Assembly: GCA_016235555.1 (NCBI GenBank)
Contig: JACRKC010000114.1
Location: forward strand, 62,001-126,000
Length of the DNA: 64,000 nucleotides
Reading direction: 5' to 3'
Origin: Verrucomicrobiota bacterium
GTDB taxonomy: Bacteria; Verrucomicrobiota; Verrucomicrobiia; Opitutales; Opitutaceae
In this document: in pieces, positions 5,951 to 59,302 of the stretch
Layout of the letters: each line of letters begins with the position of its first letter
Position numbering within the stretch: the stretch's first letter is position 1
Notes under the pieces: generated by a model
The model's database searches: none
Told to the model about the DNA's origin: nothing
The model's input: the letters and a program-made list of their open reading frames with translations, nothing else
Made by a program: the position numbers and the translations under genes

Positions 5951-6015
5951 AGGAGCCTGCTTGCAGGCGATGGTGGTTTGCACACACATCCCATCGCCTG
6001 CAAGCAGGCTCCTAC
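5951..6015. repeat. GTAG-type palindromic repeat, inverted pair (copy 1)
   Basis: Arms 5951-5973 and 5991-6013 are perfect inverted copies (23 bp, 17-bp loop). Each arm holds the small hairpin GCCTGCTTGCAGGC. The right arm ends in CTAC at 6012-6015, which is GTAG read on the minus strand. The same element occurs at 59243-59302. It lies between the divergent truA and HAD genes, so it occupies their promoter region. Confidence 0.9.
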
Positions 6016-34303: not shown

Positions 34304-35888
34304 CACCGAAGCGGGCACCGCCACCGTCCACGCCGAGGACCGCCACAACCACTTCGCTCTGGCCACGTGGCTCTTCCTCCGCGCGCTCGGGCTCATTTTC
34401 CTCGTCGCGTTCGCTTCGACGTGGATTCAGCTCCCGGGTCTCGTCGGTCCGCACGGCATCCTGCCGGCCCAGCCGTTTTTCAACGCCGTCCGCGAGCAAC
34501 TCGGCCCCGGCGCCTACCTCGCGCTCCCTTCGCTCTGCTGGATTTTCGGCGCCGGAAAATTCCTGCCCATCCTCTGCGCCCTCGGCTGCGGGCTCTCTTT
34601 GTCGCTCTTCGCCGGACTCGCGCCCGGCCCGTGCCTCGTCGCGCTCTGGGCCTGCTACCTGTCCCTGTGCGGAGCGGGCCAGGTGTTTTTCAATTTCCAG
34701 TGGGATGCGCTCCTGCTCGAAACGACCCTCCTCGCCGTCTTCCTCGCACCGTGGTCGAGGCGTGAGTTCCGCTGGAGTCGCGGCGCCCTCGCCGTGCTGC
34801 CCGAGCCACCCCGCCTTGCCCGCTGGCTGCTGTGGTGGCTGCTCTTCCGCCTCATGTTCGTCTCGGGCGTCGTCAAGCTCACGAGTGGCGACCCCACGTG
34901 GCGGGATCTCTCGGCGCTCACGTTTCACTATGAAACCCAGCCGCTCCCCACGCCGCTCGCGTGGTTCGTGCATCAGCTGCCCGCGTGGTTGCACCGCGCT
35001 TCCTGCGCCGGCATGTTCGCCATCGAACTTGTCGCACCGTTCCTCCTCTTCGCGCCGCGCGCCTTCCGCCACCGCGCCGCGTTGCTCACCATCGCCCTCA
35101 TGGTCGCCATCGCGCTCACCGGCAACTACACCTATTTCAACTTCCTCACGATCGCCCTCTGCGTGCTCTGCCTCGACGATGCATGGTGGGCCCGCCTGCC
35201 ACGCCGCCTCCTCGCCCTCAGTGTTTGTAACGTAATACGTTACAAGTTCCGCCCTGCACCCCCTCCGGGCGAAGCCGGAGTTTGTAACGTATTACGTTAC
35301 AAACTCCCGTCTCCGCGCAGCGGCATTCGAGTGTGGTCGCTGCGCGTTTTCGCAGGGCACACGTTCATTTTTACCGCCCTCCTCGCCGTGCCCTCGTTCA
35401 CCCGTTCGGCGTTTCTGCCCGCCATCGTGGGCCCGCTCCAAAACGCCCTCGGCCCCCTCCGCAGCTTCAACTCCTACGGCCTCTTCGCCGTGATGACCAA
35501 CCCGCGCCCCGAACTCATCATCGAAGGCAGCGACGACGGCCGCGACTGGCGCGCTTACGAATTTCCGCACAAACCCGGCGCGCCCGCCCGCCGCCCAACG
35601 TGGGTCGCGCCGCACCAGCCGCGGCTAGACTGGCAGTTGTGGTTTGCCGCGCTCGCACCGCCGCAGCACAATCGCTGGATGCTCGCGCTCGCCGAACACC
35701 TGCTCCGCGGCACACCCGACGTGCTCGCGTTGCTCGCGCCCGATCCCTTCCCGCAAAAACCGCCGCGCTTCGTGCGCATCGTGCGCTACGAATACCACTT
35801 CACCGACGCCGCCACGCGCGCCCGCACCGGCGAGTGGTGGCGCCGCACGCCGCTCGATTTCTATCTTCAACCCGCCTCGCTGCGCTGA
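34299..35888 (+). CDS. Lipase maturation factor-like integral membrane protein
   Basis: A 529-residue membrane protein related to lipase maturation factor (LMF1) and bacterial homologues. It has 8-10 hydrophobic segments and the family's motifs FFNFQWDALLLET, LMFVSGVVKL, TFHYETQPLPTPLAW and, near the C-terminus, NSYGLFAVMT...R.E.iiEGSdDG, WQLWFAAL and VRIVRYEYHFT. Its substrate in bacteria is not established. The start codon lies in an inverted repeat. About 26 residues near position 310-335 (CNVIRYK ... CNVLRYK) are coded by two palindromes and look inserted. Only 2 bp separate it from the methyltransferase gene. Confidence 0.85.
   Translation: MTTEAGTATVHAEDRHNHFALATWLFLRALGLIFLVAFASTWIQLPGLVGPHGILPAQPFFNAVREQLGPGAYLALPSLCWIFGAGKFLPILCALGCGLSLSLFAGLAPGPCLVALWACYLSLCGAGQVFFNFQWDALLLETTLLAVFLAPWSRREFRWSRGALAVLPEPPRLARWLLWWLLFRLMFVSGVVKLTSGDPTWRDLSALTFHYETQPLPTPLAWFVHQLPAWLHRASCAGMFAIELVAPFLLFAPRAFRHRAALLTIALMVAIALTGNYTYFNFLTIALCVLCLDDAWWARLPRRLLALSVCNVIRYKFRPAPPPGEAGVCNVLRYKLPSPRSGIRVWSLRVFAGHTFIFTALLAVPSFTRSAFLPAIVGPLQNALGPLRSFNSYGLFAVMTNPRPELIIEGSDDGRDWRAYEFPHKPGAPARRPTWVAPHQPRLDWQLWFAALAPPQHNRWMLALAEHLLRGTPDVLALLAPDPFPQKPPRFVRIVRYEYHFTDAATRARTGEWWRRTPLDFYLQPASLR
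35226..35301. repeat. Pair of TGTAACGTAwTACGTTACA palindromes inside a gene
   Basis: Two near-identical 19-bp dyads (35226-35244 and 35283-35301) flank a hairpin CTCCGGGCGAAGCCGGAG (35263-35280). They are much richer in A+T than the surrounding gene and keep its frame open, giving VCNVIRYK and VCNVLRYK. The dyads have the form of regulator operators but sit inside a coding region. Confidence 0.85.
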
Positions 35889-43374: not shown

Positions 43375-43441
43375 AGGGCCGGTCTCCGACCGGCCCATCG
43401 AACACTTCTTCGGGTCCGTGGGCCGGTCTGAGACCGGCCCT
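43375..43441. repeat. GGGCCGGTC...GACCGGCCC palindromic repeat pair
   Basis: GGGCCGGTCTCCGACCGGCCC (head GCAG instead of GTAG) and GGGCCGGTCTGAGACCGGCC(C) flank a 25-bp spacer between convergent genes. The same hairpin word is at 22796-22819 and, inside a gene, at 36224-36250. Confidence 0.88.
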
Positions 43442-43470: not shown

Positions 43471-44961
43471 TCAGGTCGCCTTCGCCGCCGCCACGTAGCG
43501 GCCGATGATTCCGTCGAACGATCCGTTGGAAAAAAACGCCACGACCCGCGGCTTCTCCGCGAGATCCGCCGGCAGCGTGCGCCCGATCAGCTTGTCGAGG
43601 ATCGCGGCATTCGTCGGCGCATGGCAGGCCTCCACTCCCTGCGATTCCAAATGCTGCACCACGGCCTCCGGATCGAAGCGTTCGTCCTCGCGCAACCGGG
43701 CGGGCCGGTTGAGCGCGCCGATGAACACCTCGTCCGCCTGCGCCAGCGCCCGCATGATCGCATCCTGCATGGTGCGCCGCGACGTGGTGTTGGTGCGCGG
43801 CTCGAACACCGCCGCGAGCAGCGAGCCCGGATAACGCGCGCGCAGCGACTGGAGTGTTTCCGCGAGCGCCGTCGGGTGATGCCCGAAATCCTCGATCACC
43901 GTCAGCTTCGGCGTGCCGAGCAGCACCTCCTGCCGGCGTTTCACGCCGCGGAAATTCGCCAGCGCCCCGAGCGCGAGGCCCGTCGGATCGTCCGTAGGTC
44001 GGGCTTTATGCCCGACATCGGGCAGTGTCGGAGATGAACCCCGATCTACGTCGTCCGCCAATATGAGTCCGGCCGCGGTCGCCGCCATCGCCGCGTTGCG
44101 CGCATTGAACAGCCCCGGCAGCGCCCATTTTACCTCCGCCCATCGCGTGCCTTTCCAGACCAGCGTGAAGCTCGCACCCGCCGCCGACTCCGCGAAATCG
44201 ACGATGCGCGTGTCGCACGCCTCGCCCGTGCCCACGGTCACGACGCGCGTCCACGGCGTCGGCCCGAGCGCGCGCAGGTTGCCGTCGTCGCCATTCATCA
44301 CGATCCACCCGTTGCGCGGCACGATGCGCACGAGGTGCGTGAACGTCCGCTGCACATCCACGAGATCGCGGAAGATGTCCGCGTGATCGAACTCCAGGTT
44401 GTTCAGCACCGCGACGTGCGGCGCGTAGTGGATGAACTTGCTGCGCTTGTCGAAGAACGCGCTGTCATACTCGTCCCCCTCGATCACAAACGGATCCGCC
44501 GCCGCGCCGAGGTGCGCGCCCACCGGCGGATCCTGCGGCACACCGCCGATGAGAAATCCCGGATCGCGCCCCGCCGCGCGCAGCAGAAACGCCGCGAGCG
44601 AGGTCGTCGTCGTCTTGCCGTGCGTGCCGCACACGACGACGTTGCGCCGCCGCCGCAGCACGTGGTCGTGCAGCATCGCGGGCAGCGACGTGCACGGAAA
44701 CGCTCGCCTCTCCCACAACCATTCGATCTCGGCGTTGCCGCGCGACATCGCGTTGCCCACCACGACGAGATCGGGCGCGAGTTTTTCCAGCCGCGCGGGA
44801 TCGTAGCCCTCGTGCAGCGCGATGCCCGCCGCGGCGAGCACGGTGCTCATGGGCGGATAGACGTTCGTGTCGGAGCCGAGCACCTCGTGCCCCGAGGCGC
44901 GCGCAAGAAGTGCGGCATTGCCCATCGCCGTGCCGCAGATGCCGAGGAAATAGATGCGCAT
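43471..44961 (-). CDS. mpl: UDP-N-acetylmuramate:L-alanyl-gamma-D-glutamyl-meso-diaminopimelate ligase Mpl
   Basis: A 496-residue Mur ligase that re-attaches recycled murein tripeptide to UDP-MurNAc. The start MRIYFLGICGTAMGNAALLA and the P-loop CGTHGKTTTT at 111-120 are Mpl-like rather than MurC-like; EGDEYDSAFFDKRSKF is the Mpl signature, followed by NNLEFDHADIF, NARNAAMA, FRGVKRRQE and DFGHHPTA. Around residues 304-325 there are 21 extra residues coded by a GTAG palindrome (43994-44049). Without them the family sequence reads straight on (ILADDPTG). Frame is kept, so the enzyme is presumably active with an added loop. Confidence 0.93.
   Translation of the reverse strand: MRIYFLGICGTAMGNAALLARASGHEVLGSDTNVYPPMSTVLAAAGIALHEGYDPARLEKLAPDLVVVGNAMSRGNAEIEWLWERRAFPCTSLPAMLHDHVLRRRRNVVVCGTHGKTTTTSLAAFLLRAAGRDPGFLIGGVPQDPPVGAHLGAAADPFVIEGDEYDSAFFDKRSKFIHYAPHVAVLNNLEFDHADIFRDLVDVQRTFTHLVRIVPRNGWIVMNGDDGNLRALGPTPWTRVVTVGTGEACDTRIVDFAESAAGASFTLVWKGTRWAEVKWALPGLFNARNAAMAATAAGLILADDVDRGSSPTLPDVGHKARPTDDPTGLALGALANFRGVKRRQEVLLGTPKLTVIEDFGHHPTALAETLQSLRARYPGSLLAAVFEPRTNTTSRRTMQDAIMRALAQADEVFIGALNRPARLREDERFDPEAVVQHLESQGVEACHAPTNAAILDKLIGRTLPADLAEKPRVVAFFSNGSFDGIIGRYVAAAKAT
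43988..44056. repeat. GTAG...CTAC palindrome inserted in mpl, with 6-bp flanking repeats
   Basis: GTAG at 43994 and CTAC ending at 44049 bound a 56-bp element with hairpin GTCGGGCTTTATGCCCGAC and a second arm TCGGAGATGAACCCCGA. TCGTCC stands on both sides (43988-43993 and 44051-44056). The distance between the two copies is 63 bp, exactly 21 codons. Confidence 0.9.
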
Positions 44962-59242: not shown

Positions 59243-59302
59243 GTAGGAGCCTGCTTGCAGGCGATGGGCTGCGAGCTGAATCGCCTGCAAGCAGGCTCCT
59301 AC
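59243..59302. repeat. GTAG...CTAC palindromic repeat, inverted pair (copy 2)
   Basis: Same element as at 5951-6015: GTAGGAGCCTGCTTGCAGGC at the left, GCCTGCAAGCAGGCTCCTAC at the right, with a 20-bp different spacer between. Here both GTAG and CTAC ends are intact. It lies between convergent genes. Confidence 0.95.

Follow-up and report, generated by a model that had tools for sequence, protein, structure and literature searches.

An in-frame REPIN in mpl and the recurrent filling of one Mpl loop by different families of palindromic repeats

The mpl gene of the source genome carries within its open frame a 56-bp REPIN, an inverted heterodimer of GTAG-type REPs, and the same loop of the enzyme is filled in relatives by elements of six or seven families. 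Most probably, this REPIN was spread by RAYT (REP-associated Y1 tyrosine) transposases. We have considerable confidence that one such copy landed in frame in mpl and was tolerated, and that the Mpl loop is a survivor site where different element families are captured over and over.

The element in mpl and its family in the source genome

The window, i.e. the whole stretch of 64,000 nucleotides that was analysed, contains an mpl gene (Table 1) whose product matches the Pfam domains Mur_ligase, Mur_ligase_M and Mur_ligase_C, in that order, and has as its best solved relatives 3hn7, deposited as a UDP-N-acetylmuramate-L-alanine ligase, and 3eag, an Mpl by name. An initial annotation had described a GTAG palindrome of 56 bp, bounded by GTAG and CTAC, inside the mpl frame. 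Its existence and position are borne out, as the 496-aa ORF is unbroken, both halves of Mpl and its frame are intact around the element, and the coding strand of the element reads without a stop from V305 to T323. The term palindrome holds only in part. The symmetry exceeds chance, but the element consists of two different REPs in inverted orientation, the second bearing substitutions, with 10 bp between them. The GTAG tag is followed by an imperfect palindrome, and the combination of GTAG/CTAC ends with a 23-bp REP, a spacer and an inverted second REP identifies the element as a REPIN. The window has a single occurrence of its first 23 bases and 100 shuffles have none, and a 69-nt stretch folded as DNA yields a z of -3.77 (0/200 shuffles); a 102-nt coding-strand stretch folded as RNA yields a z of only -1.2.

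Table 1. Positions of mpl, of the REPIN and its parts, and of the flanking repeat in the window
Feature	Position	Strand	Remarks
mpl, murein peptide ligase (UDP-N-acetylmuramate:L-alanyl-gamma-D-glutamyl-meso-diaminopimelate ligase), 496 aa	43471-44961	-	Mur ligase domains and solved relatives
Left TCGTCC, proposed target duplication copy 1, probably chance	43988-43993	+	
56-bp REPIN (inverted REP heterodimer)	43994-44049	.	In frame, corresponding to V305-T323 of Mpl
REP unit 1, 23 bp, GTAGGTCGGGCTTTATGCCCGAC	43994-44016	+	First 23 bases, tested by shuffling
Codons of Mpl residues 306-320, predicted disordered (pLDDT <50)	44002-44046	-	Between helices 284-308 and 332-336
Spacer, 10 bp, ATCGGGCAGT, separating the two REPs	44017-44026	+	Spacers vary in other copies
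REP unit 2, 23 bp, inverted, partly decayed, GTAGATCGGGGTTCATCTCCGAC on the minus strand	44027-44049	-	Common form GTAGGTCGGGGTTTATCCCCGAC
Right TCGTCC, proposed target duplication copy 2, probably chance	44051-44056	+	

The element belongs to a large family. Queried with 106 bases around the element, the source genome, a draft of 8,028,152 bases in 140 contigs, yields at least 52 matches, the mpl copy counted, and the REP unit occurs with up to 2 mismatches at 302 sites (158 forward, 144 reverse), whereas the reversed control pattern occurs at none. The best-scoring other copies are 81-84% identical to the mpl element, which does not demonstrate the recent insertion that the initial annotation had proposed. 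Both REP ends are GTAG/CTAC in all 29 copies whose ends were read, with total lengths of 48-67 bp and variable spacers, these copies being the best matches to the mpl copy and hence an uneven sample. Among 40 REPIN copies, 14 (L006, L009, L011-L013, L015-L018, L028, L355, L357, L359 and L360) lie inside a longer repeat with shared flanks, e.g. GGACTATTGGGTCGCGTGG ... GATCATCCAAATCTCAACAGCCG.

Ten loci of the source genome encode a Y1_Tnp domain (PF01797). Two of these, L035 and L040, are Y1 transposase ORFs of 173 and 188 aa with the same REP on both flanks, which resembles the published REP/RAYT arrangement, in which high-copy GTAG REPs accompany a Y1 transposase gene situated between inverted copies of the same REP (cited part of PMC2817692), as does the high REP copy number. 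Three further Y1 loci, L037, L038 and L039, each lie between a hairpin pair of their own with other GTAG or GTGG sequences, and several REP systems thus coexist in this genome; no flanking hairpin pair was seen at the remaining 5 of the 10.

Other repeats are also present in the window. A second REPIN family (GTGGAGCGCGTTGACC...), with arms that are 97% complementary, occupies 2063-2183 between purA- and folC-like genes (named by eye), and elements similar to it fill the Mpl loop in genomes G017 and G120. Between the end of mpl and an ORF that by eye resembles a histidine kinase gene, a GGGCCGGTCTCCGACCGGCCC hairpin pair lies at 43375-43441. A third family, (GT)AGGAGCCTGCTTGCAGGCGAT, is represented by perfect inverted pairs at 5951-6013 and 59243-59302, the former containing the listed starts of both adjoining ORFs. 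At 35223-35304, the inverted pair GTTTGTAACGTAATACGTTACAAGTTCCG has a higher A+T content than the GTAG REPs and does not resemble them.

The mpl copy is one of several that have become coding. The 40 copies examined (29 + 11) are again the best matches to the mpl copy and an uneven sample, and among the 33 ORFs that span copies (at least 200 aa for the first 29 copies, at least 150 aa for the next 11), 8 have Pfam domains and 25 have none. In-frame insertions were counted in 7 genes, i.e. mpl and 6 others: gatB (L002), the NAD(P)H-hydrate dehydratase gene (L003), purL (L029), an ABC exporter gene with the REPIN between the membrane and ATPase domains (L352), an Ada/AlkA-type gene (L362) and, less certainly because domains are found downstream only, a histidine kinase gene (L004). 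The copy L355 was not counted; within an ATPase-like ORF it sits upstream of the domains, close to the stop codon from which the frame opens and perhaps before the true start.

The initial annotation had also proposed an insertion mechanism in which a short target, here 6 bp, is duplicated, on account of a TCGTCC on each side of the element and a 63-bp shift between the two. Both are present as described, but the mechanism is not borne out. Among the 29 copies, a flank repeat of at least 6 bp occurs at the mpl copy only, with nothing consistent across copies, and since pairing the flanks of different copies gives matches of at least 6 bp in about 3% of cases, about 1 in 29 is expected by chance. 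Target duplication as a feature of the family was rejected on this comparison of flanks. A duplication directly at both ends, as in a MITE made by a DDE transposase, measures 5 bp in one of the 29 copies (L027) and at most 3 bp in the other 28, and none directly adjoins both ends of the mpl copy. Known IS200/IS605 relatives likewise make no larger target duplications (cited part of PMC2817692). The two TCGTCC are best taken as Asp-Asp codons and a chance repeat, a caveat that the initial annotation itself had raised. Its further claim, that removal of 63 bp restores a normal Mpl, needs correction. The span from FNARN to FRGVxR is 58 residues in the window Mpl and usually 38 in relatives, which puts the net gain relative to the usual loop at 60 bp, i.e. 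the element plus 4, rather than 63; removal of 63 bp would leave a span of 37 residues, a length found in 2 of 147 complete loops as against 83 of 147 for 38.

The same Mpl loop in relatives

Mpl was read in 148 of the 199 relatives searched and in the source genome; 3 of the 199 had no match, and a second Mpl-like row of G168 was excluded. The loop is complete in 147 of these 149 proteins, L173 and L175 stopping at contig ends. Alleles without the element, which the initial annotation had suggested looking for in relatives, do exist: 108 of the 147 complete loops measure 36-44 residues, and 83 of them exactly 38. The other 39 measure at least 46 residues.

Seventeen alleles, that of the window included, are filled by recognizable elements, the repeat classes having been assigned by eye from the DNA ahead of the genome searches. 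A GTAG REPIN like that of the window is found in L042 and in L216, from a named genome. The loop holds GTGGAGCGcGTTG elements in L046, L052 and L174, GTGGAGCGyGACC elements in L045 and L067, a GTAGCGCAGG element in L154, a GGGGCGAAGCCTCC element in L130 and L133, a long ATTTTCGATTCTCGATT element in L149 and L159, and a GGTAGGGCGAG-type element in L056, L125 and L128 and, more weakly, in L085. These amount to six or seven families, as the two GTGGAGC families share 11-13 end bases and may therefore count as one. The 90-residue loop of L174 (G137) contains several GTGGAGC-type repeat copies, as if it had been hit more than once, and the start of a GTGGAGC insert is visible in L175 where it is cut at the contig end. 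Among the 39 long loops, 16 were classed as repeat inserts, L216 being the seventeenth allele, and 23 were not; the unclassified loops include L063, L076, L122, L071, L082 and L055.

Like the window element, most of these inserts are repeated elsewhere in their genomes. Eight loop-insert queries were run against 19 genomes, a set that excludes the genome of L216, and found matches in 18, with at least 16-91 each in 16. Among the matches listed, in which the mpl copy is included where matched and palindromes are counted on both strands, there are at least 91 in G045, 85 in G049, 81 in G076, 72 in G017, 66 in G160, 60 in G115, 52 in G000, 50 in G027, 49 in each of G079 and G095, 38 in G078, 37 in each of G002 and G137, 22 in G050, 16 in each of G120 and G162, and 7 in G001. 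Queries taken from the inserts of other alleles found at least 3 matches in G101 (L063) and none in G186 (L076). L052, L174, L067, L133, L159, L128, L056 and L085 were searched with the query of a related allele rather than their own, and L085 resembles its query over short stretches only.

Long loops were also folded, 36 from the genomes above and 3 from named ones. Of these 39, 13 reach a z of at most -3; each of the 13 falls in a repeat class, and the repeat classes had themselves been picked by eye for palindromes. Among 78 loops of 38 residues, 2 fall below -2.5. In four of the 17 filled alleles, the advantage in folding over shuffled sequence is not clear: L056 (-1.4), L128 (-1.3), L030, the window allele (-1.2), and L085 (0.5).

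Most filled alleles agree in position. The element starts 17-21 codons past FNARN in 15 of 17, the exceptions being L159 (codon 12) and L128 (codon 30), and the bases outside the element number 94-100 nt in 12 of 17, as compared to 96 in the common 38-residue allele; the other five have 62, 87, 87, 109 and 133. Within the protein, this position falls between domains. In the window Mpl, the Pfam middle domain ends at residue 297 and the C-terminal domain starts at 342. The connection is shorter in 3hn7, as the matched stretches stop at its residue 354 (query 297) and restart at 364 (query 330). In an AlphaFold model (mean pLDDT 81, 35 sequences), the inserted residues include a coil of pLDDT below 50 between the domains, and the insert is therefore predicted to form a disordered loop linking the middle Mur ligase domain to the C-terminal one. 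Elsewhere in Mpl, internal insertions of at least 10 residues occur in 5 of 168 sequences (L067, L121, L166, L167 and L169) and none is REP-like by eye, the excess of the interdomain loop over other sites being judged from one alignment. Long N-terminal stretches in 7 of the 168 are stop-to-stop reads ahead of the start.

Probable separate landings and the likely cause of recurrence

Trees were built from Mpl proteins with the loop left out and with L173 and L175 dropped. In the tree of 168 proteins, the filled alleles are scattered among empty ones. An 81-row tree requires at least 9 changes between presence and absence, or at least 13 when scored by family; these counts exclude 5 uncertain rows, score long loops of uncertain origin as element-free and do not distinguish gain from loss.

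At least where the GTAG family of the window and the Lacunisphaera-like genomes is concerned, recombination between mpl alleles could conceivably have spread a single older insertion. The elements of the window allele, L042 and L216 belong to one family, are all 56 bp long and lie at the same codon position in the same phase, and 33 identical bases, extending into the flank, are common to L030 and L042. Furthermore, a clade of L042 and L216 is not rejected (p 0.386), though both have empty neighbours. Against this, uniting the window allele, L042 and L216 in one clade is rejected (AU p 7.9e-5), and with it a single origin of the GTAG element in these alleles on the Mpl tree; the spacers differ as well. 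Over 60 nt of flank, the window allele is 0.73 (upstream) and 0.76 (downstream) identical to L042, much as it is to five empty alleles of the clade (L088, L090, L080, L075 and L223; 0.72-0.77 upstream, 0.73-0.82 downstream), with a sixth, L081, at 0.72 and 0.64. Local conversion was sought in these mpl flanks and not seen, L042 being no closer than most empty alleles of the clade. In any event, the other families at the site require separate landings of their own. We thus consider spread by recombination unlikely; two separate landings are the likeliest origin of the window allele and L042, with transfer of a short tract between lineages as an alternative that could account better for the features they have in common.

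The constancy of the position could instead reflect the DNA, if the transposase or the insertion process favoured a sequence at the site (e.g. a motif at the DPxNPT codons) and selection on the protein played no part. The narrow range of start codons is consistent with such a target preference, as is the fact that the window allele, L042 and L216 agree in position and phase and each carry GACGATCC directly to the right of the element. However, the six or seven families that use the site have mostly different ends, and by eye no common motif is apparent at the junctions of those filled alleles that were compared or in the flanks of the 29 copies from the source genome. Target preference is distinctly improbable.

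Still less probable, in our judgement, is that the added loop is used, for example in regulation or partner binding, and that lineages swap palindrome-derived loops adaptively. In its favour, every Mpl whose loop was read in genus g2 (5/5) and in g3 plus g46 (5/5) has an insert or a long loop, with an element family that varies between members; these counts exclude G049 (g2, cut at the contig end), G102 (g3) and G099 (g46). Nevertheless, most relatives do without an insert (108 of the 147 complete loops), the peptides inserted by different families have no evident common sequence, and the loop is predicted to be disordered. Lastly, a repeat-driven misjoin in a 140-contig draft with hundreds of REPs could in principle have placed the REPIN in mpl, which we regard as scarcely credible given the intact frame and Mpl halves and the inserts at the same loop in other genomes, including the single-contig G050.

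We favour transposition filtered by the tolerance of a disordered interdomain loop as the likely cause of the recurrence. The REPIN, being non-autonomous, would spread through the genome by means of RAYT transposases, and one copy would have landed in frame in mpl, to be read as about 19 residues of unstructured loop and tolerated. Palindromic elements presumably land widely, and within Mpl it would be mainly the interdomain connection that accepts 20-50 extra residues with function kept, so that different families are captured at the same few codons repeatedly. By this reasoning, the inserted residues are probably expressed, the enlarged enzyme is presumably functional, and the insertion would be tolerated rather than beneficial.

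Known systems and the meaning of the Mpl loop

GTAG REPs and REP dimers inside ORFs have been published, most of them in Opitutus terrae, and intragenic dimers or groups lengthen the protein by 20 to 30 residues (Di Nocera et al. 2013, PMC3733652, main text). The REPs in the cited part of PMC2817692 are described as extragenic, unlike the coding copy in the window; this difference was not used to exclude REP identity because intragenic members have been published (PMC3733652). Different REPs at approximately the same site are on record for recB of X. campestris and X. oryzae, which is the only same-site case among the intragenic GTAG REPs in the main text of that paper, other genes of the same category being hit at different sites, and the same main text, as distinct from the ORF list of its Additional file 3, makes no mention of Mpl (PMC3733652). 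The comparison with Rickettsia palindromic elements that was drawn at the outset is supported, insofar as both cases involve tolerated in-frame insertion of palindromic repeats in unrelated genes. The Rickettsia elements measure about 150 bp (review PMC10969869, cited part, on Ogata et al. 2000, 2002), as opposed to 56 bp for the REPIN, and recurrence in one loop is a feature of the present case; the two were compared by description only, and the REPIN is not classed as a Rickettsia element. Among titles and the beginnings of abstracts, a range that leaves most subscription journals outside, we found no report of palindromes in Mpl or of one loop filled by several families. As in-frame GTAG REPs are already published, the element is of a known kind, and what is new is the scale on which a single loop has captured such elements.

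On balance, we lean towards viewing the Mpl loop as a gateway for mobile palindromes, in which six or seven families were captured separately, some perhaps replacing others, and the loop in these lineages derives largely from mobile DNA. The alleles of mpl amount to an experiment, run and replicated by nature, in the conversion of mobile repeats into protein, with the same enzyme and the same loop, different elements, and empty alleles for comparison. They allow a test of whether such loops are put to use or simply tolerated, and of whether the protein, through selection, or the DNA, through target choice, sets the position of an insert.
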